The translations under genes and the position numbers were made by a program. A DNA stretch of 64,000 nucleotides from Agelas oroides (lineage: Eukaryota > Porifera > Demospongiae > Agelasida > Agelasidae), in assembly GCA_949130485.1 (NCBI GenBank), contig OX422183.1, positions 18,693,934 through 18,757,933 on the forward strand, written 5' to 3'. Below the pieces are notes generated by a model. The model was not told the DNA's origin. It worked only from the letters and a program-made list of their open reading frames with translations, and searched no databases. Shown here one piece after another: positions 1-43,963 of the stretch; the stretch's first letter is position 1; every line of letters begins with the position of its first letter.

Positions 1-224
1 ACATCACATTAATAATTTCTACAATCCCATTTAACAAGTACCACAGTACATGGTTGGAAAAATGGGAAAAATATGTATGGATGACATAACAGTCTTGTGG
101 GGATACCATCCCAAACAATTTTTCTTCTTTGGGGTGAAAGATAGGAGACAAAAATTACAATGATACAAAATGTAGTTAGTATTGTCTGTAATGGTAGGGC
201 AAAATGTTACAAAGGTTTGTTTAC

Positions 225-335
225 CTGCTCTTCCTGACGTCTTCTCTCCTCCTCTTGACGTCTTCTCTCCTCCTCCTGACGTCTTCTCTCCTCCTCCTGA
301 CGTCTTCTCTCCTCCTCCTGACCTCTTCTCTCCTC
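225..335 (-). CDS. Tail exon 21: five tandem EERRRQE heptads (111 nt)
   Basis: Acceptor gtgtatag, 37 codons, donor gtaaac; phase 0-0. The peptide is five copies of the heptad EERRRQE (the first has Gly for the third Arg) plus a final EQ. At DNA level this is a 21-nt minisatellite inside an exon. Alternating acidic and basic blocks with i/i+4 Glu-Arg pairs are typical of single alpha-helices and trichohyalin-like rods. The ends match the short microexons, so it appears to be one microexon expanded by slippage. It is the last exon visible before the edge; no stop follows it in the window. Confidence 0.83.
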
Positions 336-3300
336 CTATACACAATAGTAGACAAAACACATAGGTGAGTCACACAGTCTGTATACTAATATTGAAGTAT
401 TGCTAACCGAGATAGTGCATAAAATGGTCACTGACTTACTCACTGAAAGGAGAGCTGCAAGTTAGAGTAACATGATGTGGTTGATGATATGTTAGCACAC
501 TTGGGGCCATGTGTTACGTTTTGTTATGAGTGGGACAAGCTGTATTATTCACACGGATAGTTTTAATGCTTGAGTTGTAGTTACTACTTTAATAAAGGTA
601 CAAATCGAGTTCAAAATTGAATCCAAAGTTCGGTCCAAGATCATTTTCTACCTGTCAAGTGGTCTAGATGCTTCAAAATTGTACAACTTTGAAAATCATA
701 GCATGTACTATCAGGGTACAAAAGGTGAAGAATGTGAGTGCACTTTAGTAAGACACTGTCAAATCAGGGCACTGAAAAACACAGAAACGCAGAATGGAAA
801 CTAGAATGATGGAAATGGGACTGAAACAAACAATGATGGAAACAAACAAAATCCTTAGCTTTCCCAACTCCAGCACAGTTGACCAAAAACCAGGGACAGG
901 GAAGGCCTAGAGACAAGATTAGCCAGGCTTATGCCAAGAGCCTGGCTATGTAAGACTAATTAGGTCCAACCTGCAGTAATTTTAAAAGTACTGACTGAGC
1001 AGCAGATTGCCACACCAGGGGTAGATAACCATATCACAGGCATATGGTCAGTTGTCCTTCCAGGGCAACTACTATGGCTGAAGTAGTACAAGCACTTCAC
1101 ACTTCATATTCAATCCCAAAGAACCTCTGCTGTCCAAGTATAAAAATAGCTAACCATTTTTGACACATGCATTGTCAAGGCTAACTCTGCTGTCTAAACA
1201 GCCAGGCTTGTTTGTCTTCACTACACAGAAGTAACCCATGGTCCAGGCATGGAGCTAGCCTCATTCCCATCATTTGGAGAATCGAGAGAGCCTGGGAGAT
1301 AGGCTAGTATGAAGGACAGATCAATGTGCTGTCTGCATGTGTAATTACCTACCTTCGGTGGGGGCTGCCTTTGGTTACTGACACAGACTGAAATTTTAGT
1401 CCAAGCAGTGACTCTCAGGCTCACAGTCCCCTATTATCTTTACTTCCATTGTTGACTTCCGTTCCCATTTCCATTTCTGTGTTTTCCAGTTGCCCATCAG
1501 ATGGATGCCCTATCTACACAATACAACACAGTCATATGTACTGTTTGTACTCCAAGTGATAGGAATGTTACAATTTACCTCCTCATCCTGAAGTCTTCTC
1601 TTTTCCTATACACAGTTAGAGAGATGATTCACAGTACAGCAGTCATACATATATTGCTAAACATATTCCTGACCCAACTTCCCGAACGAAGGGACATAAG
1701 ACTTTGCAGACCTTTGTATTCGCCACTTCCAATAATGAAGGTCAGTTTTTATCTAACCGACTATTGCTAGTGAATCTGATATGCAAAGTTGGTTCAACCA
1801 TTCAAGAACTTACTTTATGTAACCACCCACCCTTGATTTATCGTGCTTGACTTGTGATTAACATGTCACAGTTTCCCAATAAAAGTGACGAGTCAAGTGT
1901 TCTAGCTACGTACCTGTGTTACACAAGTTTGTGAAATTCATAGCATGAAGGCATGTGCCTATTCCTACGAATAATAATATTAAATTTTAAAAATATCACC
2001 CAGCCACATGAAGAATTTTAATAATGCAGGGCTAGAAACTATGACCTTTGTTGGCATACTGTTACATGTGTAACATCTTAAGGCTTAGACCTCCATCTGA
2101 GAATAACTTATAAAAATGTACGTACACATAGCAGGAACATGTTTCTCTCAGCTCCTGGGATCTAGCAATACAGCACTGCATTTTAGTTTTGACGGTTTCA
2201 CACAGACAGGTATGTGTTGGACGTACATCTATCAGGACTTGGTCAATAGAGGATGGAGGTGGTAGAGGAATTGTTCTTTCTTGTACATTTATATAGTGGA
2301 ATCTGCAATGCCATATTTAAGTTCCAGCCCCTTGCAGTCAACTTTTTGAGTTTTCTGAGTCCTTTCAAAGAGCAACTTTAAGTCTTTTTCATGGTTGTGG
2401 ATAGTCAAGTAATCAGGTCCATTTCAGCTATATAATGTAGCAGCAAAATTAGGTGCTGCCTTTGGCGTGTATTTTAAGTTTATGGTCAAGCAGCCCAGTG
2501 ATTGTAATATGGCAGCAAACAGGACTAGGTAGAAACTGGCAGCAAAGCTCACTGATACCATGAGGTTACTGGTAGCACATCATGTGCGATAATCTTTAAA
2601 AACTGAAAGTGGTGGGTTTTTTTATATGTGGGCAGTGACCAGAAACTATGAATTTTGTCACTATGGCCTAATTGAACCTTTTTTTGTTCACTAAGTTACA
2701 GAATTGGAAGTGAACGAGATTCATTTACCTGCTCTACCTGAAGTCTACTCTCCTTACACAAATAGAAAAGTTATCCACATAAGCTGACATTCATTTACAT
2801 GTACTACACAGGTTTTTTGCATAGTCAGTGTAAACTGTTCATGAGGTACTCTTGATGGTGTCTTACCTACACAAAATAACCAAGCCTTAATTTTAATTAC
2901 TTCTACAAATGTATGTATACTCCTTTCATGGTACTCCGAATAACAAAATGTTTTACCTCCTTTTCCTGTTGAAATCTTCTCTCCTCCTGTACATACAAAT
3001 AGTATTAATATTAATTAGTAAGAATATGGATACATAGATAGGTAGATAGATAGATAAATAGGTAGATGGATAGATAGACACAGTCATGCTATGGATTTCA
3101 GTTGTACAATTACACTGAAGCATCTAGATCACTTTCAGCGTTAGCCTCGTCCCCAGGCCACTCCCAAATTTTATCTCGCAGCTGTGGAGAAAATAACTGA
3201 AATCCATAGCATGACTGTGTAACGATATGCTGAGCAAAAGGTCAATCAGTCTGCTTTAGTGAGGCACCCTCTGATTGATGCTCTGTCTACACAATGTCGT

Positions 3301-6300
3301 GGTGTAGGTTAGCATTCCTTATGTGCAAGTGTCCCTCCCATAAAATGACAATTTCAATCACCACTCTAGAATTAGTAAAATGCCTTTATGAGCCAATCCA
3401 ATTATTAATTCTCAAGTGTTTTCATGAGTAATAGGACTGTTAACGCCACTTTGCACCACTGCTGAACAGTCAGCAGACTGGTGGCAACTTGCTAAACAAG
3501 CAAACCATCTTTTCTTCTTCAGCCAGGCTAGCACAATAATGGCTGGAGCATTTCAAATGCAAGGAAGCAACATGCAGTACAAGGTAATGCACTCATATCT
3601 TAGCATTCTCAAAGAACTCAAACTGTTCAGAGATTCTGAAGTGTTTGCCACTATACACCATCCATAGCAGCTATGTCAACAGAAGCTCTAGTACTAGCAC
3701 TGGTCGACAGCGTAGCTTGTAAGCTCCATTTGTTGGCTGATAAAACAGTTCTTCCTCCCCCCCCCCCCCCCCCTCAGAGCAAAATAACAGTAACTATTAA
3801 CCTATTTGTACCTAACAGTAACTAGTAACCTATTTATTAACCTCTGTGTACAAGGTTCTAACCAAAAGCACTTTCAGAAACAACAAACACAGGATAAAAC
3901 ATCACATTTGTAAAATTCTGTGCACATAACAAGTATTGAAAAAATGGCACAAGGTTTTGGGATTGTGCAAAAGTATTGTGGTGTCATTCTTACTTTGGTG
4001 ACTTTTTGAGATTTCGATCCCTACATGTACTTCTTTAATTTCGCACACTTGTTGTTTATGCATACTATACAGTGGCAAATTTGTGAGGGGCAATATTTTT
4101 GTGGATAGACCATTCGCAAATTTATGTGGAAATAAATTTCACGGATGAAAGATTCCAGTTCGCCACATCCAGAGTGCCATGTCCATTTGTAGCCACCAGC
4201 CAATTTATTTTCCATGCCCAATCGTAAATTGTTGGCACGTATTGGGATGTCTTGCATAAGAGAACTTGGGGGTCGTAAGAATCCCTTTGCCGTGGCAGTT
4301 GTGCTCTGAAACAGAAATACTGTGAAAATTATGCACCCCAAAATTTGGCACTATATGGTATAATTATATAATATCTAATTCCATGTGATGGAACAAATAC
4401 AAAAGTTCTTTACCTCCTCATCCTGAAATCTTCTCTTCTCCTATACACAGTTAGATAGATGATTCACAGTACAGCAGTCATACATACAATGCTACACATA
4501 TTCCTGACCCAATTTCCCGAACGAAGGGACATAAGACTTTGCAGATCTTTGTATTAGCCACTTCCAATACTCAAGTTAGTTTGTCTCTAACCAATTTATG
4601 CTAGTGGATCTGTTGCAAAAAATAGTTCAACCATTCAATAACTTACTTCATGTAAACAACCACCCCTGATTTATTATGCTTGACTTGTAAGTAACATGTT
4701 ACAGCTTCAAAAATAAAATGAAGAGTCACATGGTCTATCTGCCTGTGATAACACAAGTTTGAAATTCATAGCATGTACATATGTATTTAGAAGTTTTTTT
4801 CAAATGGTCAGTCATTGTGAAGTGTGAGTGCACTTTAGTGAGGCAATCTCAGATGGATGTCTCAAAACAACTAAGCCATAATATAAACATATATTTGAAG
4901 CAATAAGTTACAGAATTGGAAGTGAATGATGTTCATTTACCTGCTCTGCCTGACTCTCCTCAAACAAATTGAAAAGTGATTCACATAAGTAGACATTCAC
5001 AGCATGAAGTTACATGTACTAGCAGATCATATGCAAAGTCAGTGTAAACTGTGAATATACTTCAGGTGTGTGTCTTTACTACACAAAAATTATTAAGCTT
5101 TAATAAATTATACTCTCTATTCGTATATGAATGTACAGTACTTCAAGTAATGGAATAAGACGAGAATGATGTTGATTTACCTGAGATCCACTGCTTTCCT
5201 GTACAAATAGATTAGAGTACATTAATTTACAATATGCATTGCAGCATTATTTAGAAACCATATTCCATAGTCAATTTTTGATACAATCTCCTTAGGAGAA
5301 AAGAATCTGTAGACTGCCTGATTTGAGGAATGCCACCACAAAAATGAAGTTACTTTGCCTCCAATCTGAATGTATTATGTATCTTTTTGTTTTCCAAATT
5401 AGAAGCCTGCACTACGTATATGGAGATTTGCACTCAGATAAATTTACCTACACAGAATAACAACCCATTGAATCAGAATTGATACATAGTTTGTGTTTCA
5501 AGTCACAAGATGTGAGCAATGCTACGGTATGTTTTTGCAAATAGCGCTGCATTTCGGAAACCACTTCCACTACTGCACTTCAACTGCACCACAAATACAT
5601 CTCCAGAATGCATAAGCGAAGCATTGGAAGACTTAAACAATTAAAGCAGCTTAATTGAAGCTCTTGAAGACCAAAGTTAAGGCTCCAGAAAATTTTCAAA
5701 TTATTCAAAGGTTTTCCAGGCTTTAGGAAGAAGCCTACTTCATCTGCTTTGTGAAGTAAACTTGCAGTGAAGCTGTGCTGCAAATGTATTGTACAGAAAA
5801 ATGTCCTGCATGGTGGCATCATTTTTAAGACACATACCATACATACAGTTGCTTACTGCAGGTGCTCGTAATAGTATTGGTAGTAGTAATTATTTTTGAA
5901 GTGTAATGCAAAATTCTGCAATGCAAATTCTATAGAAACAGCTCCCTAGCTGAGGTACTAATTTTCTTACCACTAATATGAGGTCTAAAGATAGCAAAGT
6001 TGCTCTCTGATGGATGTTACCTACACAACATTTGATTATACTACCTTAAAAGAAGTTTTTACATTCCAAGTGACAGGATGTGTAATGAACAATGTTACTG
6101 TTTACCAGCAGATCCTGAATAAGTTTCCTTGTCTCAGCCTGTACACACAAACACAGCAGAGATGAATATAGCATGCTTAGCACACATAACACATAATACA
6201 AATACTTCATTGACAGATAGTAACAAAACACTTGGCAGATAAGTACAGAACAGGAATATGATTCAGTGTACGAAGTAGCATTCTAAAATAGCGCTGCTGT

Positions 6301-9300
6301 TCAGATTTGTGTTGCATGTGTTGCCTAACAGGTACATAAGGACAACAGTACCTGGTCAGGTATACAAGTATATGACAGAACTCTTGCAAGTTTTTGACCA
6401 TGTTCATGAAGTTATGATAGTGATGTCAGAGGTTCCAAAAGTATGTAAATATTCTTCTACACAGGCCATTTCTCCACAATGTCTTAATGTATTCACATCA
6501 AATTTGGTATAGAGGTTCCTTAGAGGCTTGGGTATATTTCCTTGCACAGCTTTCAAATTGTTAAAAATATCTGCCTCGATCAAAACTACACATAATTTTT
6601 TGTCACATCTCGCTACTTTTCTGCAAACTGTTGAAGTATTAAGACATTTTGTGATGCTGCTCACAGTTATATACTTCAATATTCAACAAAGGTACAACCA
6701 GTTCTGTATACTAGAGTAGTTGTCCAATGGGATGGTACAAGTTTTTGATTGGAACCTTGCTCCAACTTCCCCGGAAATGCTTATTTATGGCCACAAAATG
6801 CCGTTTTTCAAGAATTTATCAAGCCTAGTGCAAGGATTATACTAGATATCTAAAAGCTACAACCTTCATTGAACTGAATAGGTACAGACTATCCTTCACA
6901 GTGAGTTTCATTCTGATCAGGCTTACAGCGGCTTCCGGAAAGGTAGTGACCGGAATATTGTGCTAAAATGATGTAGAAAAAATTTTGGCAAACCAGTTAC
7001 ATTTCGAAGACCATACCGCTTGCTGTATTCACCCAATCTCATTGATATGGGTACCTTTGGAATCGCCATTTTATGCTCTTTTCAAAAATAAAGGTTGTTG
7101 TTGTGATAAACAAATTTTGATTTCACCCCGACATCGCTAGTTATGAACTTGTTCTGTTCATGACTGAACTAAGGTCAGAAAGGTTGATAGACTCAGAATT
7201 AGCAAATCTCATTATTCTCAAAATTTGCAAACTCAGACAGTTAGTCCACAGTTATTTGAATTACATATGTCGTGAATATGTCACTTGACAGATGTTTATG
7301 AACTTACAGTACATGTACACCAGGTGTTATACAGATGCAAGCCTATCACTTTATTGCAACTACTGGAAATCCCATTAGGGTATACCACCACGGTGTATCC
7401 CAGCATATTACCGCAAAGAGGTCAAAAAATAAATTCAAACAGTTCCGGAACAGGGGATTATAGAGGAGAGTAGCAACCCGCGGATGACACCGGCAGTGTT
7501 TGTTCCAGGGGCTGAACATTTGTTAACTCATGAACATAGTTTGTGAACTAATTCCCCACTCAAACTCTAGTTCATGAGCATTTTGAACACTGTACATTGT
7601 GTTACCTTTTTTCAGTTGTATACTGGGTAAAAGTGCATGCATAGTATACATACATACAGGTATCCATAAGGCTCTGCTTCACTTGTTGAATAATGGCATG
7701 GTAGCTAGCAGCAGAGGCGTGCCATTTCACTACCACCATTGAGCTTGAATCCATCATTTCACACAACTATGTATTTTGCTTTTTATACTGTCATGGATCC
7801 ATGTATAGCTATGTAGGTACGTACATATGCAGTTGCCACTATTATGCCGGTGCAATTTCTACGATCTCACCATGCTATAAAGTAAGATCAAAAACAGCCT
7901 CACAGGGAGAGAGTGGTCATGATGCCCCTACAAAGGCATTGCGGAAGGTTTAGTCTATCACAGAAAGAATAAATCAAAGATATATATATTATATACATGT
8001 ATATATATATATATATAATAGCACCTTTGTCTTTCAAGTGATGAAGGATACGTAATTAGGTCTTACCTGGTGTTCTTCCATTTTGTTCAGCAGTTCATTC
8101 TGTAAACACAATCACAACAGAGCATAGCTTAGAGGGTACAACACAGACATTGGTTGTATTTCAAGATGAAAGTTTGCACTGTGCAGTTAAATATCTCAGA
8201 TGGATCCAGCTAACATAAAAAAAATTATAGCTAAAATTGTGTACATAATGAATGGAGAACTCAACGGAAGTATGAATTGTACTATCACTACCCTTAGAAG
8301 GATACCAGCCATCAGCATTCCTATGGTTAGTGGCAATACCTGGTAGACTATTAAGTCCAGTATATACTTTTTGATAACTCCTTTATAGACTGCAAAAGCA
8401 ACAAACCATTGCAGCTAAGCAGTCATTTGAAGTTCTTGCTTCTAAGGTTCTAGATTATGAGGACCACAGGTCATAGCAACTTTGGTCCTCAGGTGAAAGT
8501 TTTAAGGCTATGGGTACATGTTTATGAGTAAACTCACAAACTTACTTCTCCTACAAAAGAGATACTGGATTTCAACTTTCCTGGCTACAGTGCAGCATAT
8601 TTCTGCTTATTAACCAGTGCATGACAAGCAGGGTTAAGTGGTCAGTATGCATGCATCAGTTGCCAAAAGTTTGGCCAGTTTGTTATGAAAAGCAAAATGT
8701 AACAACTCGGCTATATTAAGGCATGGTTGCACTTGCTTTTGACTATGTAATGTTGTCATACTTTCACATTGTATCTCTGCTCATGAATGTGTCACAGAGT
8801 TCTAGTTTTCACTCAAGTAAAAGTGCAGCTGTGTAAATTTATATGGCTTCATAGTTGACCACATCCACCAGTCATGTGATACTCCCTAGTCACTGAAATT
8901 TTCACTGTTGTAGGTAGGAGATATTAGAGGACACTTATAATTGGGAGCATCAAACTTTGCATGAAGGATTAGTACAATATCAATATAATTTGCCAAATTC
9001 TATTTTGGAAGTTTAAAAAAATACTTACATTTACTCAGGACTGGCAAAAGAAGCCTTCTTGAGTTCATATGGATCCCCAAAACAAGTGCAAGACAATGCT
9101 ACCTCACAGCACAACCACAATGTCACTTTCGTGAATCAATGTCACACTACGTATAGTAATCTCTCTGTTACACATAAAATTATTGAGCCATGCCTTAATA
9201 TACCTGAGGACTTAAATGCACTGAATTGGTACTAGTATCGATGCATTTTAAAATGGCAAAAAGGGCTCCATTCTCAAATTGAGCTGTATTTTTGTCTAGC

Positions 9301-12300
9301 TTCAATGCTGTTGCTGGAGGTACACAATTCAATACACGTACAGAACTAGTCCATGAATACTTTGATTGACAAAATGTGAAGAAAAATGTTACATGGAGTT
9401 GTTTACCTTATTTTCTTCAAGTTGATGCTTCATTTCATCCAGTACACAGATTACAGCACAGTAAAGTGTAACAGGGAGCATAGCATAGGTTAATATTATT
9501 TAACATGAACAAATTAGAACATTAACATCCTGAACCTCCTGATTCATAATATATGCCACTCCCAAAATGAAGTTAGTTAATGGAAACTTGATCTAATGAG
9601 ATGTTCTAGACTAATGCTAAAAGAGGGTTGTTAACTGCTTACCCTCATACCCTCAAGTTCATTCTTCATTTCATTTGGTGCGAAGAAATACGGCACAGGT
9701 GAACATAGTATAACAGAAAGCATAGTACAGATTATTAGAGTGAATGTGTGAGCTTTGGACACCAGGTAAATTCAAATGTTCTTGCGTGGAGATGAACAGT
9801 CGCAAAGACAAGGCGGTTCTTCGGGACTGTAGAGGATCGAGGTTTGTAAACTTCAGCTTACCAAAAATGGCGACCGCACATCGTTTGCTGTTTACACTAG
9901 AAGGAAGAACGTTACCCATCCGAATAAATTGACAATTGAAATCGTTTTGATTTCAGACAGCCATGTCTGTGCCTTCCCTGAAGACTTTTTTGGAGACATT
10001 TCTGCATCAATACTGTTCCAAGACTCCTCCATTCCACAACTGATTATGGTTGCAAGAGCTGCTTTGACCACTTTGGGGCGCTGATAGACGTTGACCGGGG
10101 TTATAGATCAATAGTTCGCTAGGGAGAAAATAGTGATATCTCACCTTTTTACTATGTCGTTATTACACAGGTTGCAGTCTTTACGATATTGATATCATTG
10201 GAATTTGCAGGTCATTAGCAACATGCTGGTAAAAGTCCGATGTTTATAGGTTGTGCAGTTCTGGAGATATTGCAAAATATCTTCCAAAGTCACCTATCTG
10301 AAATGTCTGAACCATTTCCTGAAAGGAAACTAGAAAAGCAGATGCATCTATATAATGTACGTACAAGCACCAGAATTGTACCAGAGTATTGCTAATGACC
10401 TGTGCAGTTGCCATTTTTGGTATGCTGAAGTTTGCAAACCTCCTCTACAGTCCGGCGGAATTGCCTTATCTTTGTGACTGTTCATCTCCGTGTAAGAGCG
10501 TCAGAATTTACCTGGTGTCTGAAGCTCACATACGTATATTACTCTATCACAGTAGTTCAATATGTACAAATTAAGTCACCACGAACTGTATAACCACAAA
10601 CCCAACATCCTGAATTTCCTGATTCAATATAATTATACAGTATGTAAAGAACAATGTTAAGTATACCTCCAATTCCCGAATTCTTTTTTCATGTTCCGTC
10701 TTATTGTGGCACAGGTGAACACAGCACAGCATAACAGAGAGGATAGCATAACATAGCTGATTAATACAGTAGTTCAATACTGTAGGCACTGGTTGTTAAG
10801 TGCACTTCTTTACTTACTAAGCACATCCTTTGCAAATGATCTTACCCATGATGTATTCAAAGTACATGACCTATGACATTCTAAAGCAGACAAAATTGTC
10901 AACAATTTCTATGGTCAAAACCTGTCCCAATTTGACAGTCCAAAACTCATTTATATGGTCAAAACAGATTTGTTATGCTCAGATCCTACAATTTTTCTTG
11001 GTCACAAAATTTCTCGGTTAGCCTCCATTTCATTCCAACAACATTTTATGCACAACCCCACTCCAGAATTCTATGGTCATGCACAATTTCATGGTCAGTC
11101 TTGACTTGCACCAGCAGCCTAACGAGTATAGCAATTAGCAATAGGACGTGGGTTGACACTCCCATGTATACTTGAGGTCAGCCACGCCTTTCTGCTTATT
11201 TTTATCTCATCTTCACATTCAAAGTGGTTTATCACGGAACTTCCATTAAGGGTGGGGCTCATATACACTTAATTCATAAATGTATCAGATAATCATGTGT
11301 CTATGAAGCATGTATGAACCCTGTTCTTAATGAAAGTTCAGCAATACAGCACTTCAAATGCAGTGATCGAGTGACCAAATAAACAACAGAATAATACTCG
11401 ATTTTTATTCAGGACTGCCATATCACTAACTGTACAACCATAGTCATTGCCAGACCCAGCCACCTGAAAAATAGACCTTCTGATTTATGCATTACATATT
11501 TTTCCCACAATTGTCTCCAATAAAAGGGTTTGCTTACTTTTGTCTTCTCAAGTCTGTCTATCTTCTCTTGAAGTTTAACCTACAATTAGCAGAGAGTAGA
11601 ACACACTGTCAGGTGATTCACACAGCAGTGTATTATTTAATAAACATATAAACATAGTCATTCCCTCTAAAAAATAGGAGACAAGATATTGTTGAGCATA
11701 ATGTAAATTTATGTTACGTATGTGTTAAAAAAATGATTCAGAATGTTTCTCTTTTGAAGTAAAAATAAACAAAAAACTTTCTGAAGCTTCACTTCAGTCA
11801 TTCCCAGCTTTATTTAAACTCTTCAAAGGCTTCAATTATGTATTCCGCATTTGCAGTGGAGCCATGGCACAGTATTGAAAATGACTTGTGAAGCTCAGCT
11901 CAATATTAAAGACATGCACTATATACTTCCCCCTATTGGCAATCTATTTATCCCATATAGAGGGTTCCTTTTGCAGAAGAAAACTTTCACAAATGTCTGA
12001 TCAAATTTCTCATACAGAATTCAATCCAGCACAACAAAACCTATTGAACATAGAGAATAGTCAATGTGTACAGCAAGAAGTAGTTCACTTTGTAGTTCGC
12101 TGTAATAAGCAGAAGAGTGCATGTCCCAGCAAATTAAATATTCACCCAAAATCTCCAGTACAATGTATGTGAGCAACTTGATCTCACTGCTGGAGATGTG
12201 TATTAAGGCGGCTCCAACGTTTCCACCACTCAAAAATGAGAATACGAATGGCTCTCTTGCCCAACTTTTGGGGGAAAAATGTGACATATTGTTGCAAAAT

Positions 12301-15300
12301 ATTACAAAACTGTTTCGAGTTGCTCTTTACATGGTATTCTTGTGTAGTTTCACTCACTTAACCACCTCAATCTGTCTCCACAATTTTATTTATGGTGACA
12401 CAAAAGTTGGATAACTAGTAGTGAATCTCCTGAGTTCAAAGTTCAAAATGGAATGGCAAATACAAATGTGTAATACTGTAAATTACTATGCACTCACAAA
12501 ATTTTAATGTTATCCTGCCACTTCAATCCTTGGGAAACAAGCTTTATAAAAGTTGACATCACATGAATTTAATTTCATCCAGCATGTGAGGTTAATTCCA
12601 TTTCTCCTGTTTTAAATGGCATTGGTACAGTTTAGCATGGATTTCATGGCTTCTGGCATTATCAGGCAGTTAATTACAATCACAAAAGCAAAGGCAGCAT
12701 GAACTGCCTAATAAGGTGCCCTCAAATTGATGCCCTAACTGCACAAATAACTGCAATTAGAGATATATGTAAATAAGAATCAAAAGTAGGAAGACAGCAA
12801 TCTTGTTTACCTTAGCTGTGTTCGACTCCTGCTGCTGATCCTGTACACACAATGAGATAAGTGATTAAACACAGTAGTACATTATGTATTCTAGTATTGA
12901 TCCATAATCATTCCCTGAGCAAATCCCCTCAAAGAAATTAAGGAGAAGAATCAGACTGTATATACAAAACTTGGAAGCTTGACCTAGTGAGATGCTTTCA
13001 GATATATGTACCATAAGCTCCTGATAATATGCCACCTTAGAGCAAATGCCCTCCGAACCTCTTTACCCCCCAAATTCCTACATACGTAGCTAACTTTCAC
13101 TTTTCTAAATGCTCCATAGCAAGCAGCTTCTGGGCATGCTTTTAGTGAACTTTTGGTTTTGCCCTGTTGTCACATGTTTTCGTAAATATGTACATGTGAA
13201 ATCGCTAGCTTTTGTTGCTCATAGTATGAGCCTTATATGTGGGGTCGTCGCTTTGACGTCTCTCGGCAGCACAGATGCCGCTGATATTCTATGTGTAGTA
13301 CATAGTCAGTAAAGCTGCCATTCTTCTAGAAGGTCGCAGCAGTCATAACGATTGTTGACCTCACATGCAACATTGCAAGAAACCGGGCATATATGCTTGA
13401 GACAAACTGAATATTCTAGTAAATGCCCTCTTCACCATTTTGGCCTCAAAGTACGTAGTATGCAAAAAGGGGCGAGCGTATTTTCGGGAGCTTATGGTAA
13501 TAGACACCTACACTAAATCTTTCAAGTATGTTTGCAGTCCAAGTGACAAAATACAACAATCTACCAATGTTTACCTCCAATTCCTGACGTGTTTTCTTCG
13601 TTTTATTCAGCACACAGAATTATAGCACAGGTGGACATAGCATAGTACAACAGAGAGTACAACATAGGTGATTCACACAGTAGCGTACATTATGTATTGT
13701 ACTACTGCTAATAATAATCAGTAGCATTTCCTGACCCAAACCTCCCAAAGAAAAGGAGAACATTATGATTGAATAAGAACCACTTTCCCAACTTGAAAGC
13801 TTGATATAGTGAGATGGATTCAGTTAACTATACTGCTATACTGCTATACTGCACATTAAATCTTGTAATCCAAGTGACAAAATACAACAATCTACTAATG
13901 TTTACCTCCAATTCCTGACGTGTTTTCTTCATTTCATTCAGCACACAGAATTATAGCACAGGTGGACATAGCATAGTATAACAGAGCACAACATAGGTGA
14001 TTCACACAGTAGCGTACATTATGTATTGTACTACTGCTGCCGTCTGTATTGTTACGAGTGTGCAGCACGAGTAACAATGCCAACAGCAACAAACGAGTGA
14101 TACTTTTTCCAGTATAGCTTAGTACTATGGTGATAATGATTTAATCATACGAACCTTCGATTTCATTGCACGTTCAGACACACACACGTGACTTGTAGTA
14201 CCTGATACAGATTCTCGCGTGACTTGTAGTACTGATGTGCGGATTCTCACATGACTTGTAGTACTGATATGGATTCTTGCGTGACTTGTAGTAAAAAATA
14301 TGGCTTTTTATAAACTGCATGCAGCTGCAAGGCTTCCCCATAATAATCAGTAGCATTTCCTGACCCAAACCTCCCAAAGAAAAGGAGAACATTATGATTG
14401 AATATATGAACCGCTTTCCCAACTTGAAAGCTTGATATAGTGAGATGGATTGAGTTAACTATACTCCACCTACATTAAATGTTGCAATCCATATGACAAA
14501 ATGTGAAGAACAATCTACTAATGTTTACCTCCAATTCCTGACGCGTTTTCTTCATTTTATTCAGCACACAGAATTGTAGCACAGGTGGACATAGTATAGT
14601 ATAACAGAGCACAACACAGGTGATTCACATAGTAGCGTACATTATGTATTGTACTAAACATAGGTGATTCACACAGTAGCGTACATTATGTATTGTACTA
14701 CTGCTAATAATAATCAGTAGCATTTCCTGACCCAAACCTCCCAAAGAAAAGGAGAACATAATGATTGAATATGAACCACTTTCCCAACTTGGAAGCGAGA
14801 TGGATTCAGTTAACTATACTGCTATACTGCACCTACATTAAATCTTGCAATCCATGTGACAAAATGTGAAGAACAATCTACTAATGTTTACCTCCAATTC
14901 CTGATCTTTTTTCTTCATTTCAGTCAGCACACAGAATTACAGCACAAGTGGGCATAGAATAGTATAACAGTGAGCAGGTAGTGTGCATCATGTATTGCAG
15001 CATTATTAATACTAATTCCCTGACTCAACAACTTCAAAGAAACAAGAAAAATATGCAACAACTTTCCCAACTTGGAAGCTTGATCTAGCGAGATGCTTTC
15101 AAAGAAATGTTACATTAATTTTGCACGCCAAATGACAAAATGTGAAGAACACTACTAATGTTTACCTTCAATTCTTCCTTCATTTCATTCAGCACACAGA
15201 ATTATAGCACAGGTGGACATAGCATAGTACAACAGAGAGTACAACATAGGTGATTCACACAGTAGCGTATATTATGTATCATAGTATTGTTAGTACATGT

Positions 15301-18300
15301 ACTGCCATTCCCTGACCCAATCCTTTTATGAAAAGGAGAAGAATATGATTAAACATACACCACCTTGACCAGCTTAGAAGCTTGATATAGTGAGATGCTT
15401 TTAGATAAATGTAAACATCAGACTAGTGACAAATTGTAAAGAACAATGTACTAATGTTTACCTCCAATTCCTGACGTGTTTTATCCAGCAAACAGAAATC
15501 AGCACAGGTGAACATAGCATAGTGTAACAGAGCACAATATAGGTGATTCACATAGTAAGAACCCATAGTCATTCCCCGACCCAACACCCTGGAGGCCTCA
15601 AAGCCAGGACACTAAACTCCATGAACCAAGACAAAAGGACAGGAGATGCATAAAACATCTGAATAATGATTAAAAAAAACAAAAAACAGTTTAGTCAGAT
15701 CAAGTAGTACTACAATTATCGTATTTATTCCGATAGATGCAGCCCTCTAATAAATGCCTCCCCTTACGGTACAGTTGAAAAAAAATATTAAATGTCACCC
15801 TCCAATAAATGCCACCATAATAGTATTCACAGCCTCTCATGTATGCATGCAACTTCAGCCAGGTGGCTTCTGTGGATAATGTCATTTAAGCTAGACGCTT
15901 ATCGAAGGCTGTACAACGAGCGGATGGATTCCAATTAAACCCTTCACACCAGCTGGAAACATGCATCCCTCAAGTAATGCAATGCCAAGTGGGCCTGGGA
16001 TGCAGTAAACACTGGTGTCATCAAGAAGTCTTTCCGCATCAGTAGAATTGGCCTGAATCCAGATGGATCTGAGGATGCCAAGATTCACTGCATTAGAGAA
16101 GATGGCATGGCAGCTGGAGCCAAGGAATAGCATGCTTAACAGTATGCAGGATGAAGATGTCAGTGACTCATTTGCAGAATTAGTAGCAGATGAAGACGTA
16201 CTGGAAAGCAATGAACTAGAAATTGAATAATACATAGAAGATGGCACACTGTTTTGCATGTGTATGTACTGTAATAAGATGTATATTCACTTCAGGTGAC
16301 GCTTGGGCATAGGCATTTATTAGAGGGTTTAACATAGTTAAACTGGAGGTGGAAGGCATGCATAGGGTCAGCATACTATGAGCTGGTCACATAGTCACAC
16401 ACGCTCACCTACCATTACTGGCACTGACAAGCAAGACACACTCACTGGCAGGGCTTACTAGAAAATGCTTCAGCATTGTGGGCGAGCCTGAGCGAGTAGA
16501 TTGTGCTGATTTGTGTCATGGCACACAAACCATGAATAGCAGCAGGGTTTGTGACTGCCTGCTGTCAGTCAGGGCAGCTACTATGGCTACACATACATGG
16601 ACTAAGCTAGGGCACACGCATGGACTAAGCAAATCATGAGCTGAATCTCTGGAGTGTAGTTTGTATGTGGCCCTTACCTGAAGCAACTTCAGTCACCGTG
16701 CATACCGTAGTCTGCTGTGAAGTTTGGTCCGTAGTTGAGATAGCTTGTAAAAAACATACACAAGCTGACATGCGTGCTTCAACTTCAGTCGTCTTGGCTA
16801 CAGGTTGCCGATGCTGCACTCTGACAGTTGCCCTCCACTGGCTTTCACATACTTCACAATATCGATCTTCGTGAAATGTTTGAATGTGGTCATTTGAAAT
16901 TTACGGTAAGTGGTCAGTCCAAACAAGCAAGCAAGCATAGATACACACACGCGTGTGCAATGTAGTCATGCTAGTGTGGGGCTCGCTCAGGCTTGCCCCA
17001 ATGATAAGCTTTGACAAATTGTCAGTAGATTACTGATTCAGCAATTATTTCATGTACATAGCTGGTTTCAGAAAATGTATAGTAATGAAAGTTTAAAACC
17101 TTATGGTAGAAATATGATAATATATACACCCCTCCCCCCCTCCCCCCAAATTGGGCTGAGTTGGCCAAAAGGTGGGAATTTGGCATAAATTCAAATTCCC
17201 AAACATTGGGCAAAGTTTGAAGTGTAATCCTACCCATTCACTCCACCTTTACAGTAAGGCAACAGATGGAAATTGCCAATTATTGTAGGATTAAATTACA
17301 AGGTATTTAGTCCCATTTGTGCAGTATATATACTTACAATATTTAAAGGGAGGGGGACATGAAAATTTTTTCTTTTTTTTTATTGGCTATTCTTGAACCT
17401 TGGGTTGAGTAATGTTCACACAATTTTTTTTAGATTTTTTGCTCAACAACTTTCTGCAGAAAACGAGGTCAGTTTCCACCCTTAATTGCATGCGTTGCAG
17501 CTCCATCCGGTTGTGGTGTAAAGAGGGCGCGGTTTCACGTGACGTCAGAAAAGGAACGTTGATCGCTTGCCTCGAGCGTTAAATGGAGAATAGTGAGCGA
17601 TAGGAGCAGCGATTCCGGCGATTTTAGCCTGTCTTGTTCAGTTTCTGGTTATCCTTTCTCGCCATTGTACAGCAAGGGAGTGCTCTGGAATGCACCTTCG
17701 TAGCGCTCAAAGCATTGCCACGCCTACCGGAAATATACCGGAAGCCTCTGAAGTAGGGATACCTCTTTACTCAGGACACTTTAGATGGCACCAATGGTGT
17801 CCGCACTATAGAAGTTCCACTGTAACCATGTTGATTCAAATTCAAAAATGCAATACCAAAAATGGAAACGCTTACATAACCCGCCCGCTCACTATAGTTG
17901 CTGAGTACCTTAGCGCGAGGCTACTAATCGTGCAGTGTAGTCAGTTCACATTTGTATGTATATACATATATATATATATATCCGTCACACTTTAATTGCG
18001 TGGGTGCAGTTTCTGTGGTCTCGTCCCCAGACTACTAGCCACGTGGTACTGGTCCGACGAGGAGGCGATCGACGTGTGAAAAAGATCGTGTGAGAGCCGA
18101 AATGGAGCAGGAGCAGCTAGTCCAAGCGTGATCGTGCTGGAGAGCGAAAACGGAAACAAAGGGACACTGCATCAGAAGAGAATAAGGCAAATTTAAGGCA
18201 TGAAAGGAGAAAGAGTCTGACAGATTGAGGAAGAAGCGATGTATACAGGGAGAGTGTAGTTGAGATAGGTAAGACAGGTAGGACAATGTTTAGTTTGGAG

Positions 18301-21300
18301 ATTCGCACGACACTTTGCTCACTTCCTGAAACTCTTCAGACGATCGCTTTGCCATCTTCACCGCAATACCTCGTCCCCAGCACCTAGCACCTACACGCTA
18401 CACGTGGTTACAACGGATATATCTACTTGCATATTTCTTCTGCGCGAGGCATACTCTGCGCATGCGTATTCCTAGTATATATTATATGAACCATAATAAG
18501 GTGGTGGATATAGCGATCATACTATCCTCGACCTCGGTCATCAGAAGTTTGTAGTTCAATAGATCCCTCGCCTTTGGCTCAGGGTATACGTATCTACTGC
18601 AAACTTCCTCTGACTTCGGTCTCAGGTAGTATATTCGCCATTGCGTTGCGCATTCTCAGAATCCCGAGATTGAGCAGGCAAACTCGAGATTGCGTAACAC
18701 GTGTGCGCAATCTCTTCATGTGCAATCTATGAACTTTGCCTGTACGCTTGACAGCGAGTGATCCACTGTGCTGTGTAGCGTGCAGGATGGAAGACATCCT
18801 TGATAAGCGGCGTCTGCCTCCATAGGAGGCATATTGCGATCTGGAAGAGTGAGTAATGCTGTGTATTGAGTGTATACTATCTAATTGTGTCAGCGACAGT
18901 TGAAACGTACCTTCGCTGAACTGTCAGCCAACTTTTGCGTGTATTATTGGTCATTTTCAGGTACACAGTGGGTACCCGTGTTTCCACCGTTGTAGCTTAT
19001 TCAGACTTTACTAGCAGGTCTCTTGACTATGTCCTGAGTAAGGCAGGTTTGTTTTCAACCAAGCTAAGCCAAACTATCATTGCCTGAACTCTGCTATTTT
19101 ACAAGATACAATGCAATGAATCAACACTACATAAAGGCGCCATTTTTAGTAACTTCTCTCGTAACCACGAGATGGTTTCTGCACATGCGCGTCGGGTCGC
19201 ATTCTCAGAATCCCAAGATTGCGCACTATAGTTGTGCAATCTCGAGGTAGCGCAAATGTATTGTGCAATCTCGAGATCGTGCAAATGTATTGCGCAATAT
19301 CGAGATCGCGCAACTATAGTGCGCAATCTCGAGATTGCGCAAATTCTCGGATTGCGCGGAACATATATATACGTATCACATATAGAAAGAGGATTGTGGG
19401 AGCTGTTGGCTGCCCAGTTGCAGCTCAGTGGCAGAGCACTGGCAGCTCAAGCCAGGTGTCATAGGTTCAAATCCCAGTGACTGCTGGCTTTTCACATTCC
19501 TCTTTTTCGCCTCATAGCATCTAGATCTGTTTTAGACATTGGATGGTATGCAACACTTCCATACTGTGGAACAGAATTTATATGACCATATGCAGCTTAT
19601 TAGCTATGTAGTCAATGCAACTCACAGGAGGTCCTGTGGGTCTAGGATCACCAGGACTTGGAGACTCCCTTGGATGTGGAGTGGGTTCATTGGATTCCTG
19701 ATAGGTGTGTGTGTGAGTGTGTATGTACGTGTGCGTGTGTGTGTGCATGTGTGTGCATGCGCGCGCGTGTGTGTGTGTGTGTGTATGTGTGTGTGTGTGT
19801 GTGTGTGTTGTGCGTGTGTGTGTGCATGCGTGTGTGTGCATGCGCGCGTGTGTGTGTGTGTGTGTATGTGTGTGTGTGTGTGTGTTGTGCGTGTGTGTGT
19901 GCATGCGTGTGTGTGCGCACGCGTGTGTGTATGTGTGTCAGTTGCCCAAATTTTAGCTAGTCTGATATATGTAAAGCATATACTGTCTTCTAAACAAAAT
20001 TGGTACAGACAAGCTATTCTCACAATAGATTCCTTACCTCCAATTTTTTCTGTGTTTCACCCAATATGCAATTCAGCAAACATAGCATAATATAATGGAG
20101 AGAACATATGTAGGTGATTCATAAAGTAGTATGTGCATTGAAGCACCACTGACAACATAACCACAGTCATTCTCTAAGGCAGTTCCCAAGAAGAACTGCA
20201 GATCTTCCAATTTGTAATAATGCCATCCTCTAAAACGAAGTTAGTCTTGTATCCAATTATACATCAATTATTGCAATTTCAATTTGGACGCTGTATCTTG
20301 CATCGCTGGTTATGCTCCTCTTGCAGACAACAAAGTAGATTCAAAGTGGCTAGTTTGCAAAGTAGGTAAAGGCATGTCTGCTCTTAATGTTGTTAGGTAA
20401 CAAACTCTCGGGTCTATGGAGGCATCTTGGCTTGGTTTTGACTTTAATGTAGCTAGTGATGTAATAATTTCCAGGCCAGATAAAGGGGCTATAATGTGTT
20501 ACAAAGTTCTTGAATCGCTGTTGTGAAGTAAATACTAAATTGTGGCATTCAGAAATTTTGAGTTGTTTGATCAAAGTATATGTTTTATGGATAGTGTACG
20601 TCAGTCACGTTTTCATAGACCTGTTGATTCTTGCCTTATGCTTGGCTATACACAATGCTGAGTCAGTATACCGTAAACTTGGGAGCATAAGTACCAGTAC
20701 TTTATTTCAAAATTGCGCATTTTCGTGGTGCCAATCACGTAGGGTACCTAATTATACAGCAGTGCAAATGCAGCCATAGCGATACCACGGTAGAGTAGAC
20801 TGCTTGACTAGTTTGTTCTTACAAACGGACCTACTGCCGTCTGCTGTCAATTTGGCATCGCTGTTGATCACAAACGGTCACAACCGCCCAAACCGCTACA
20901 CATGCATGCATGCACGCAGCTCGTCGCACAATGTCGTCATATCCCGATTGTAGCTAGCTTCAGTGAAGTAGCATCTCGCCATTGTTGCCCGAGCCCCTGA
21001 GTATTGCTGCTGCTGCTGCTCCTGGGACAGCTAAAGTTAGCTACTGCTATCTATGTTTAGTCTTCGAAACAACTCCGCTCCCAGACTGGTTACGGGCTGA
21101 TGGGTACTAATATTCATAGGGTACATATGTTCGTGTGGGTACTACTATTCAGGAAATTGGTTTGATAGGTACTTAAATTCATAGAGTACTTGTAATTGAT
21201 CGGTACTGATACTCCCAGTTAACAGTAGACTTCTCAGTTTTGAAAATCCTGGCTTGCGTAACATGGTGGTTTGTTACATATGTTTTGGGGGCCTATCCAA

Positions 21301-24300
21301 GATTTGCTATGACTTTACACCCACTGTGTATCTGCTGGACATGCTGCACATAGAAAAACAGCGAATGAAGGCAGAAAATATCCAGCTGTACAATGAACCC
21401 CCCAACGAACCTGCTAGGGACAATGTCGAGGTTGACTTGTCCCACACCCTTACACAAAACAAGCAAATGACAGCAGAAGCCAAACAGCTAGAAATGCAAG
21501 GTTGACAAAAGTGGGTGCATTTCTAGAACACTGGACACAAGATATGATGCAGGGACAGCTGCAAGCACAAGCCACTAGGGAAGCCTGAGAAAGCCAGGCT
21601 CAGAATCTGATGGAGGGTCAGTGGTGAGTATCGGCGCTAAAGGAGACCATTCCAGCTAAGAGTGTATAAGTGAAAAAGGTGAACAATACAAGGTATCATG
21701 GTCGTACTGCCCCTGTGATTGATGGCATATCAGGGGATCCTCAGATTGCTGGGTTATGGTCAACAAAATTTAAGGAACTTTATAATCGTTGTAATCCAAG
21801 CACAAGAAACTCTTTGCAGGAGCAACTGAATTCCATCATAACAGAAGATGACCTTGAGACTTTACTTGTTGACACTGACACTGTTATATGTGCAATTAAA
21901 CGATTAAAAGCTGGAAAATCAGATGGAAAGTCCTTGATGTCTGATCATGATCTGTATGCGCCACCAATTTTAGCTTCCAAACTGTCTCGTTTATTTACTG
22001 CTCTGTTGCGGCATGGATATACATCCAGATGCCTTCGTGACTCTATTATTCAACCTATTCCTAAAGGTTTCAAGGATCCTGCTATGTCAGCCAACTATCG
22101 CGGCATTGCACTGGCCCCGTGTTTCAGTAAATTACTGGAACTCTGTATTCTGATGCTATTTCCAGATGTGTTCTACACTTCCGACTTGCAGTTTGGGTTC
22201 AAGAGGGGCTTCTCTACTGATCTCTGTACAGGATTATTGAAGCTTGTCTCATCTCGGTACATCCACCAGGGATCAAAAGTTCGGTGTGCTCTATTAGACA
22301 TGAGCAAAGCATTTGACCTAGTAGATCATGGTTTACTTTTTCAGCTACTTCTTGAGCGAAACCTACCATGTTCTGCTACACGTTTTTTGTTGCAGTGGTA
22401 CAGTAGTCAACAGCTACAGATTAGGTGGAATGGTATCCTTTCTTCTCCTTTTCCTGTATCAAATGGTGTACGACAGGGTGGAGTCTTATCCCCAATCTTG
22501 TTTACGGTTTATATTGACGAGCTTTTGTAGCATTTGCAAAATCTTGGTGTGGGTTGTCATTGGGATGGGTTGTTTGTTGGATGTCTTTGCTATGCTGATG
22601 ACCTTGCCCTACTTGCTCCTTCTGCTGGAGCACTCAGGAAAATGCTTCAGGTCTGCTCTGACTTTGCAACTGAAAGGAACTTGTCATTCAATGCTGAGAA
22701 AACTCAGCTGATATGCTTTCGTTTGCATAAATCTGCTATTGTTGAAGATGTTGTTGAGTTTTGTGGGGTGCAGCTGACTTTTGTTGATACTGTTGTTCAC
22801 TTGGGACACACCCTGTCCTGCAATCTTTCTGACTCTGAAGAGATTGAGATTAAGACAAAAGATTTTATCAGGCGTGCAAACTGTCTTCTTTTGAATTTCG
22901 GAGTCTGTTCTGCTGCAGTGAAGTCTATGTTACTTCAGTCATTTTGTATGTCTTTTTATGGGGCTGCCTTATGGAAAGTGTCATGTCCTGAACTCCATTC
23001 ACTAGAGGTGGCATTTAACAAAGTTTTGCGTAGAATATGGAATCTTCCCTATCGCAGTCATCGAGCATTGACTCATAAGACAGCATCATTGCAGAGCATT
23101 TATAATCTTGTATATATCAGGTGTGGAAGACTGTTGCAAGCGGCTAAGCTATCCCCTTCAGTATTAGTTCAACATGTATTTCTTAGTGCTGCTTTACATC
23201 CTTGGTGTTTTCTAGGGTACAACCACCTTTTTGGTTTCAGACACGTTAGGTCTTACTGTAACTCGGACTGTGCACTTGCTGGGTTAATAAGAGAGATTAG
23301 AAATGATTATTTGTGTATTCCTGGCTTTGATTATTCTGAGTTAGAACAGGTTGTGTACACTGCCAGTACCTTCTAGTTTCTACATAATATCTATTGTACT
23401 TTTTTGCGCCTATTTTTTGGCGTGTGAATGATGATGTTAATAATAATAATAAGAATGGGAGCATAGAAGAAGAGCATGTAACTCAAACAGAAGCCCATAA
23501 TCTGGGTGAAATCTTTTCAATGGTACTAAAAACAGTCATGTGCTGACACAACAATGGCTTCTGTCTATGCAGCTCTGCTATTGTTTCAGCTTATTACTGT
23601 CAGTTTGTCAGTCAGAGTACTTTAACTGCAATCAGTGTGCTGGTAAGCATGTCTACAATTGTTGAAAAGCAAACGTACACCACAGTGACGCCACAATCTG
23701 TTCGAATAAACTTGGGTAAGACTTAGCAGGAAACAGCATATACTATTTAATGTCTTCAAAACTAGACAAAACTTCACTGTAGCTTGACTTGGCTCAAAGC
23801 ACCAATTGAACAGACTCTAAGAGTCTGGATACTAGGCTGACTCGTACTCCAAAGCTCTGGATACCAAAGCCCAAAAAGCACAGTATGTGTTACCATTTTT
23901 AGTACTGGCAGTAAATTTTTGAATTTTGCATATATATATAGTTACAAGCTCTTCCTCTGACCATGTGCTCTTATGCACTCTTGTTCATAACGACAGAACT
24001 ATTTTGGATTCAAAATCTGAAGTGAGCAAGCAGGGGTTGGTTGGTGTGGATGCCTGGGAAGAAGAGCATATATAAGAAGTTGCAGTGATTGTTTATGTCA
24101 ATTATCAAGCCTACTACCCCAATGTTCAACAGGATATATATTATAGTCATGATCAAGAGGCAAAAGAGATGGTTAAGGCAGTGTTAAAATCCCAGTTGTT
24201 GAGTGGTTTGCTACCAGAGTTGCAGGTTGTGAGCACGAGTTGTCACAGGTGTTAACCGAGACCTGCCTTGAAGAAGCAAGAAGCCACAGGGCCCTTGGTC

Positions 24301-39300: not shown

Positions 39301-42300
39301 GTATAAAAATTTTAATGCAAAAACTGATAATTAAGATGTCTTCGTTGGTTGATCAAGAGAAAGCCCAGTCACTGCCCTTCCAAACAAAATTTGTTTCGTG
39401 CAAATCGGCCGAGTATTTCCAGAGTTACGCGTTAACTATGTAAATCTACAATGGTTAACTAATGCAGAATAAAAATTGATAATAATTTGTATTAGATTTG
39501 TGGCACTGCCTACTGTTCATTTTGCGATGTGTTTCCGCAACTGGATAAGCTGTTTCTGAGTCGTTCGACTGCTCCAAGGTAAATCCAGGACCCTGATTTC
39601 AGATCTGGGAGTTGTTTTACATCAAAAAACATGGATCTGTCGGTAAGCGAGTTAAAAGCAGCCCAAAATTCAACACAAAATGTTTAACGGTCCGTATTAC
39701 AAGTAGATATAGGTTCGTTAGCACGAGTTTGATATACCCAGGACTGCATGCAGTTAATATATGGCCCTTGTTACTCCGGATAGTTATTTAGATCCTGCTG
39801 ACACCGAATTGCTGAGATAATTCTGTGCAAACAATAATTTCCACATGCCTAGCTTGTCCCTAGGCCCTAGCTGCACAGCTGGGCACTACGCAGGTCCCTA
39901 GAAGCCGTGTTGAGACGGAAAAAGTAGTTGAGAGAGAAAATAGTGCAGTATTGACTATGCCACATGCATGATGCTGTCAGATATAAATATGAAGACTCTC
40001 AAGTCTCGGATTGACCTTAGAAAGCAAGTACTAGGGCTAAATTACCAGACAAAGAACTCTTCCTGAATCACAAGCAATTTTCAGTGGCTGAGCTTACTCA
40101 CTCATTTTGAGAACTTGACTTAAGACAGCTCCAGCTCCACTTGATAGTCATGGTGAACCCCAATTGGGCACAAGTGGTGTAATAAAGAGGGTGTATAATA
40201 CTGGTATACAGCTCATATCTAGAATGCAGCTTCAGGAAGTGCACAATGTACAAATGTACGATATGAGAAAGGTGTTCTTACGCTAGGACTTTCATGAAGA
40301 TGTAGCAAGAAAATAGGGATTCTGATGTTTAAATTTGAACTAATATTATTCCACTGTGTGGTGTAAATGTTGTGTCAAAAATAGTGAACAAAAAAATACG
40401 TTTGTGACATTCAGTAAAACTTCTGTACAGCAAGTGAGATATAGTGAGAAGTAATATTTAAAGACTTTAAAAACATTAAAAATGTAAAAAGATGTAGAGA
40501 TGGCATGCCAAAAAGTATGCAAACAAGGTAGGGATAATGCATGAAAGCAAAGGTGCAATTAATAGCCATTCACTCGTGCTATTAATCCCAAATTGCACTC
40601 GAAACCATGCTATTAATTATACATATTAGATGGGTACATACCATGTATTAGCGTCATGTATGCTACTGTATGTATCCCTGACATGTAATCTCATGCAGAA
40701 TTATTATACACAAAAAGAGACAAAAAGTGTATAGATTTGTTTGTACTACTGGATGTCCAAAGCACCTCTCATTACTGTACGTGCGAAAGGTTTCATTATA
40801 AATGAAAACTTTTGCAAATAATTATAGTGTGATATTAAGTCAAATCTCAAAGAAGTTCCATTCTAATAGTGATGTCGGAAACATTTATGTCAGAGAAAAT
40901 TTATGTCAGAAATTAATGCTAGCTTTCAGAAGATGACCACCTTTACGTTTTGTATTAAATTATCCTATACAATAATGATTATGTAAAACAAGTGTGTCTT
41001 GCATGAATAACTCCACACACACTTGTTTTTAAACTTGATGTGTTTTTACTTACCTGTGACTATGAAATTGTCTGTTTCGCTTTCTGAAGTACTGCTAAGG
41101 CACATCACAGTTGTTTCATTCCTCATAAACATCCTGGATGCGTTCACTTCTAGAGTGGAAGTGAAATTGGCATTCAGAGGACCACTACTGTTAAACTTGA
41201 TGAGAAAAGAAGTAAATGGATCTTGATGAATGGTGTTTGGAGCTACAGATGTTGTGTATCTGATTGAAGCTGCTTGTGGGACGAGTGGGCTGCGCCATTC
41301 CAGTGAAGCTGACCCAAACACTTCACAGGTGAATGTCACCAGGTCCCCAGGACATGTAAACCGCCCTTCTTTATTAGAAGTCAGTTTCACACTGCCTGCA
41401 ATGAGAAAGATGATAAAGTGGCAGTACTGCAAAAATGCTTGTTACATACATGTTCTGCCTTGTAGAAAGTGTTAAGCTGCACCAATATTTCACATTTGGT
41501 GACATCAGTACTGATTACGATGCAGTACACAGTATAGATACTCTCAGCATACTGTGTATACAACAAAGTGAGTTAGAATGAGCAGAGGTGGTTGCAGTAA
41601 AGCCTAGCTTGTTCAGCATTGGGTGAGCCATGGGTAAGCCGTTTAAATTCTCTTCCCTTTTGCATAAGTGGACAAAGAAACACTGTAGTGTCACTTTCTG
41701 CATGAGTTTTGGAACTTTTGGTTTCAAAAGTACTAACTGTGCAAGTCAACATTCTGCAATTTGATGATTCTCCCGTTGCAACTGGATGTTGCAAGAACTT
41801 AGAAACCATAGCATGATTTTGGAGAACAGTTGGGTATTAATTAATGGGAGAAATTGTCTTGAATGCTTTAAAATTAAAAATATTGGTCGTTTAGGCCTTT
41901 CCACCATCCAGCTCACTATAACTGGTTGGTGATCATAAGCTGGACAGTAGAAAAGCTTTAGAACAAGGCTAATATAAGACATAAAAGGTAGTCTACAATC
42001 ACTGGACTGGACTAATGGACTGGACTAGTGAACTTGACTGGTGGACTGGAACTGTGGACTGACATTTTTTGCACTAAAAATCACTTTTGTGCTCTCTTAT
42101 GAGACCTCACTCTCCTGTAGGTTTAGACATGATGCATTTTAGTCTTTATAAATCTGGACACACTATTCTCTCTGTTTAAACATAAAATAAATAACTGTAG
42201 TACTACAACAGTAGTGAGGCCTCGCTTTACTTTGTGCTTAGTGTGCAGCATGGTGCGAGGTAGTTTCAGACTCACATCCAGGCCCCAGTTTTTTTGAGTG

Positions 42301-43963: not shown

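Follow-up and report, generated by a model that had tools for sequence, protein, structure and literature searches.

Schistosomes provide the best-known genes with tandem microexons; these genes vary secreted proteins, and microexons make up as much as 75% of their coding sequence. Ig receptors of the UNC5-like type carry intracellular tails of ZU5, UPA and death domains. One report on schistosomes (PMC4015677) describes SmVAL6 as a gene of 38 exons, in which four large exons encode conserved motifs and the small ones are alternately spliced, and it describes the symmetric microexons of micro-exon genes (MEGs) as undergoing skipping. Titles and abstract openings of the literature searched describe no receptor layout of the kind considered here.

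The window, by which we mean the whole stretch of 64,000 nucleotides analysed (C1:18693934-18757933 of Agelas oroides, within a searched genome of 259 Mb in 141 contigs), resembles the Schistosoma MEGs and SmVAL6 in its run of tiny symmetric exons. Ten microexons of 18-42 nt with sound splice sites are all phase 0-0, which is a weak test of the schistosome-type trait given that the candidates were selected for it. The locus differs in that these microexons would supply 94 of 627 residues, about 15% of the joined chain, if they are joined at all, and in that many units are recognisable tandem duplicates that encode an E/K/R/Q-rich helix and lead into ankyrin repeats. Our tentative reading, which we place just under an even chance, is a long-form surface receptor whose intracellular helix would be encoded by microexons multiplied in tandem and followed by ankyrin repeats, with several such coil arrays on one chromosome (Table 1).

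Table 1. Features of the receptor locus, the microexon array and the left neighbour, ordered along the minus strand
Feature	Position	Strand	Remarks
Signal-peptide exon MLTLVVLLVILPAVPIHA	43963-43909	minus	donor phase 1; sequence read
Ig-like exon	41395-41054	minus	phase 1-1; paralogues, weak Ig profile match
FN3 exon	36708-36388	minus	phase 1-1; paralogues, fn3 in relatives, structure model
Membrane exon GGAIAGGVVGGIVGVGIVVFIVAVVCIKRRSRKVKK	28723-28596	minus	phase 1-0; splice scores
Microexon candidate KKLE, 12 nt	20049-20038	minus	copy of array unit; acceptor weak
Proline-rich linker exon ESNEPTPHPRESPSPGDPRPTGPP, 72 nt	19697-19626	minus	phase 0-0
Candidate terminal exon YGSVAYHPMSKTDLDAMRRKRGM-stop, begins YGSVAYHPMSKTDL, 72 nt	19563-19492	minus	sequence and splice score
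Dispersed repeat overlapping the end of the stop-bearing exon	19422-19520		matches at six other loci
Six tandem units of ~300-600 bp, KTRQELE/EELK-type candidates of 9-21 nt	15557-13531	minus	fair donor, weak acceptor
DQQQESNTAK	12840-12811	minus	sound splice sites
VKLQEKIDRLEKTK	11579-11538	minus	sound splice sites
Possible exon TEHEKRIRELE	10699-10667	minus	diverged unit; weak acceptor
Possible exon NELEGMR	9663-9643	minus	diverged unit; weak acceptor
Possible exon HQLEENK	9427-9407	minus	diverged unit; weak acceptor
NELLNKMEEHQ	8099-8067	minus	sound splice sites
AETRKLIQDLL	6138-6106	minus	sound splice sites
ESSGSQ	5198-5181	minus	sound splice sites
ESQAEQ	4958-4941	minus	duplicate of 2752-2729, 6-nt in-frame gap
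EKRRFQDEE	4440-4414	minus	duplicate of 1605-1579
EERRFQQEKE	2986-2957	minus	sound splice sites
ESRLQVEQ	2752-2729	minus	sound splice sites
EKRRLQDEE	1605-1579	minus	sound splice sites
EERRGQ(EEERRRQ)4EEQ, 111 nt, internal 21-nt repeats	335-225	minus	sound splice sites
Ankyrin exons of 99, 99 and 84 nt	L009 9340-9242, 8186-8088, 6746-6663	minus	phase 0 after exon 335-225
Ankyrin exons of 93, 99 and 87 nt	L010 3641-3549, 3397-3299, 3007-2921 (terminal, TAA)	minus	in phase
Left neighbour receptor	L011 2365-770, L012 9045-5050 (window -27.6 to -34.9 kb)	minus	exon reading

Reading of the exons together with splice scores bore out the first part of the gene as a sequence-only reading had proposed it, with signal-peptide, Ig, FN3 and membrane exons meeting at phase 1 borders and a switch to phase 0 after the membrane. 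The successive joins are 1-1, 1-1 and 1-0, the 3' border of the membrane exon is in phase 0, and a scan of 43-46 kb returned the signal-peptide exon as the sole candidate. Single-sequence Pfam searches of the window exons recognised neither Ig nor FN3 (0 families each). The FN3 assignment is supported by a relative (P0007) that matches Pfam fn3 with E 1.7e-4, under the curated cut-off, by a profile (A2) that matches NCAM2 with E 5e-4, and by a structure model with a seven-stranded domain and a mean pLDDT of 78.9. Support for the Ig-like exon is weak and comes from a profile (A1) compared with antibody light chains (E 0.05) and from a relative (P0002) with a Pfam ig match of E 0.033. These data support a predicted single-pass Ig-like/FN3 surface protein, of which the Ig part is weak.

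The ectodomain gave 52 matches at E <=0.001 among 92 candidates, the window's own two included, and 51 of them fall within 15.8-18.9 Mb of C1 (mostly 17.1-18.9 Mb, with the remaining one at 23.5 Mb), so that the receptor belongs to a cluster. The window gene shares with this family the ectodomain homology, the signal peptide and the membrane exon, and the paralogous ectodomain exons are 33-66% identical when its own two are set aside. We read paralogues in five stretches and in the left and right neighbours. Most of them have Sushi domains, and six tails (in three stretches and the right neighbour) end in AYGPV near a stop that is read in the frame of the membrane exon, whereas the window gene has a phase-0 membrane exon and shows no Sushi frame when frames of >=25 aa are searched with one sequence. 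In the other two stretches (L049, L052), where membrane exons lack the AYGPV tail, no E/K/R/Q-rich exon run follows them at threshold 11. Inspection of paralogous gene structures, to which the sequence-only reading had pointed, showed a cluster of related ectodomains with differing tails. Among 10 relatives found in the receptor protein search, two that look spliced (P0001, P0009) stop at or soon after the membrane segment, while the joined 627-residue chain has no relative of 345-1097 aa among 5145 candidates. Viral contigs contained no relative, and Rfam at gathering scores found nothing in the window. A divergently transcribed paralogue lies on the plus strand at window-numbered 73089-83737 (L015, L016); it has Ig-like and FN3 exons and a membrane exon, shows four Sushi frames, and its tail ends in NEAYGPVHH.

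In the left neighbour, which we take to represent the UNC5-like type, Ig-like, FN3, Sushi, membrane and linker exons precede frames judged by eye to be ZU5-, UPA- and death-like; Pfam finds neither the ZU5 nor the death domain, and two scans of the preceding 10-kb gap found no signal-peptide exon. The ZU5-like and death-like frames have 135 further matches in the genome, counted apart (137 among 150 scored of 196 candidates), and on these matches they form a large expansion across chromosomes. The window gene shares with this neighbour a post-membrane linker exon with a phase-0 continuation. It differs in that the neighbour's ZU5-like and death-like sequences match within 144 kb only the neighbour itself, with none in the window or to -27 kb, where coil and ankyrin candidates are found instead.

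Following the membrane exon, 21 phase-0 exons with GT-AG borders and without a stop had been listed, forming a tail of about 20 microexons. Ten microexons (12840-1579) and the 111-nt exon stand up by score, with acceptors of 4.2-8.7 and donors of 6.2-11.3, but ten further units (at 20049, six at 15.5-13.6 kb, and at 10.70, 9.66 and 9.43 kb) have acceptors between 1.0 and -5.7 with donors of 4.5-10.8. The tail therefore counts ten sound microexons by score rather than some 20, and the absence of stops is not confirmed either, a stop-bearing candidate exon lying between receptor and array. The series does not end at 225, as had been supposed, since ankyrin exons continue in phase 0 outside the window to a stop, which makes it part of a longer coding chain. 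The last ankyrin exon ends in RTPLDVATEGGHVEIEEMLDLNTLFVYS and the stop at about -17.08 kb, weaker exon candidates lie between the two ankyrin trios, and Pfam Ank matches four joined exons with E 1e-31 and 107 bits against a cut-off of 21. A protein search with the coil-ankyrin chain returned generic coil proteins only (7 matches). Joined, the array would encode a charged helix of about 130 residues, probably a coiled coil.

Between 15.5 and 13.6 kb a block of a few hundred bases is repeated in tandem, its six units being 69-95% identical, and diverged copies of it stand at 10.7, 9.7 and 9.4 kb. We conclude from these alignments that the array units arose through local tandem duplication. Searched against the genome, unit DNA matched other arrays on C1 only, at 29.109-29.131 Mb and 28.0385-28.079 Mb, with a match at 19.614 Mb; the 4.4-kb unit matched only its duplicate in the window. 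In 3 kb of the 29.109-29.131 Mb array (L063), we read five microexons (36-57 nt, phase 0), among them EKMKEAHKKEFQ and EKMKRMNEIHQRELKELE, although alternative donors score higher for the 36-nt one. Coil-like candidates at threshold 4 numbered 10 on one strand against 0 on the other, alternatives counted. None of the 52 ectodomain matches lies near the other arrays (28.04-28.08, 29.11-29.13 and 19.61 Mb), so that arrays do not require this receptor, and no ankyrin-exon match lies near them among the 150 scored of 2562 candidates. A link of these arrays to GIMAP/AIG1 genes was considered and rejected, since some 0.24 Mb separates the 28.04 Mb array from the nearest of 45 AIG1 matches.

Whether receptor, coil and ankyrin exons form a single gene is, in our estimate, an evenly poised question, and we lean slightly towards a single gene, perhaps one with an alternative short tail, rather than two neighbouring ones. 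In the long form, the membrane exon would be followed by the proline-rich linker, the microexon array and the ankyrin repeats, all in phase 0, with the stop about 17 kb beyond the window, and one transcript would join these parts; a short form may terminate in exon 19563-19492. The charged helix would then keep receptors associated or set their spacing, and the ankyrin repeats would serve to bind a partner in the cytoplasm. Receptor and array lie on one strand in compatible phase, and further exons are expected after the membrane exon because its 3' border is in phase 0, in contrast to the six paralogue tails in which the membrane exon reads through to its own stop. The 3' end and donor of the linker match the left neighbour's post-membrane linker exon (79% over 47 nt, E 6e-5), which there leads into the large intracellular part described above.

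The best hint of one gene is the unit copy at 20049, which ties the array to the receptor tail region. With its own overlapping loci excluded, it is 80% identical over 50 nt (E 9e-6) to array units, those at 13.6 and 15.2 kb, the next-best other match in the 144 kb assembled plus further loci having E 0.69; this alignment covers the intron 5' of the exon, and the exon itself aligns in the multiple alignment only. Against the genome the unit matched only itself, in a search that must be considered insensitive because it also missed window units found otherwise. Duplicated DNA may, however, insert into an intron and stay unspliced.

The main competitor, somewhat less probable than our own reading yet a substantial possibility, is a pair of successive genes on the same strand: a short-tail receptor ending YGSVAYHPMSKTDL..stop, then a coiled-coil/ankyrin protein of the cytosol whose start would be the ATG of an array unit (such as MKKTRQELE) and whose end would be at -17.08 kb. 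The stop-bearing exon has an acceptor of 6.0, compared with 1.5 for the linker and 1.0 for KKLE, and its VAYHPM motif resembles the AYGPV ends of the six paralogue tails. Against this, the stop of this YGSV exon falls within a dispersed repeat: from about 19520 onwards the exon consists of the repeat, which supplies its last codons and its stop, and at 2 of the 6 other loci (L039, L047) the match overlaps the same place. This candidate may be a genuine terminal exon, a truncated exon or not an exon at all. The linker is separated from the first array unit by about 4 kb with dispersed repeats, which counts against a single gene. In favour of one, between 12.85 and 19.48 kb the phase-0 first-exon candidates with a good donor number nine, comprising only array units and two candidates of one and three codons. 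In-frame ATGs occur inside four units and upstream of a fifth, and the units at 15.2, 14.9, 14.6 and 13.9 kb combine a donor and an ATG with a weak acceptor, as first exons would; these ATGs mean little, because the L063 exons carry one at the corresponding place (EKMK). The occurrence of coil arrays elsewhere without a listed ectodomain match nearby, the missing E/K/R/Q-rich run in L049 and L052, the lack of a long-chain relative and the early ends of P0001 and P0009 all fit two genes, while the position of the 20049 copy upstream of the receptor linker speaks for one. An ATG exon at about 18.36 kb (MAKRSSEEFQE) was also considered as the start of a separate coil gene and was dropped because its DNA (18300-18420) is a dispersed repeat, carrying that ATG together with a good donor, of which at least 39 further copies exist at 90-96% identity (40 scored of 176 candidates).

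We judge it very unlikely that the microexons are AG..GT pairs present by chance in intronic DNA, or remnants of an array that has decayed, and we consider with good probability that the array is coding sequence. The list of 21 phase-0 stop-free exons is no evidence in itself, since 28.6 kb contain 1288 stop-free in-frame AG/GT pairs of 6-72 nt. At threshold 8 over 12.8 kb, neither phase nor the lack of stops is clearly enriched (45 scored candidates in 200-13000, where simulation gives 34.4 and the opposite strand has 46), and the weak acceptors of ten units also agree with chance. What speaks against chance is the excess of E/K/R/Q-rich, coil-like candidates, a class defined post hoc, after the data had been seen: at threshold 8 there were 9, against a simulated mean of 1.18 and a maximum of 6 in 100 simulations, the nine including two alternative donors of counted exons and the simulated counts being treated likewise. 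The counts were 5 against 0.52 (maximum 3) at threshold 10 and 1 against 0.10 (maximum 1) at threshold 12, and the density was 0.70 per kb here against 0-0.26 in eight other stretches. In the duplicate pair 4440/1605 the exon is identical at 25/27 positions (93%) and the intron at 290/354 (82%), and in the pair 4958/2752 the exon is identical at 17/18 (94%), plus the 6-nt gap, and the intron at 147/180 (82%); conservation of exon above intron is suggestive only, the numbers being small. The related array in L063 has the same kind of exon, and the ankyrin exons follow in phase after the last array exon. For hydrophobic periodicity three periods were tried (3.5, 3.6 and 3.67 residues), with shuffle fractions of 0.038, 0.082 and 0.028 for the joined window chain and of 0.821, 0.011 and 0.000 for the joined L063 chain (2000 shuffles).

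The least probable reading, a special case of the single gene in which one receptor would vary its tail by combinatorial splicing as had originally been proposed, finds a parallel in the skipping of symmetric schistosome microexons (PMC4015677) and in the symmetry of the microexons here, for which the candidates were selected and which tandem duplication of one phase-0 exon would produce anyway, but it is not suggested by the lengths of the 11 sound exons (10, 14, 11, 11, 6, 6, 9, 10, 8, 9 and 37 residues), as only 1/11 is a multiple of 7 and 2/11 are multiples of 11, and most skips would therefore shift the coil register. The microexons look instead like the product of a duplication that would lengthen the helix in the genome, not like a splicing code.

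The array of recognisable duplicates and its related arrays show how microexon arrays can arise, a small exon being duplicated along with its intron, and tie them to a structural outcome, the length of a helix. If this is true, duplication of exon-plus-intron units, each a few hundred bases long, would be a way to lengthen coiled coils, and short and long tails might be alternatives; and if the array is joined to the receptor, the family would combine one type of ectodomain with a tail that is short, ZU5/death-like or coil-ankyrin.

Two sets of mobile-element-like frames were seen by eye on the plus strand of the window. Frames resembling a non-LTR retrotransposon RT occupy 21200-23376, in the long intron 3' of the membrane exon, and broken frames at 46781-48538 are presumably of a hAT-type transposase.
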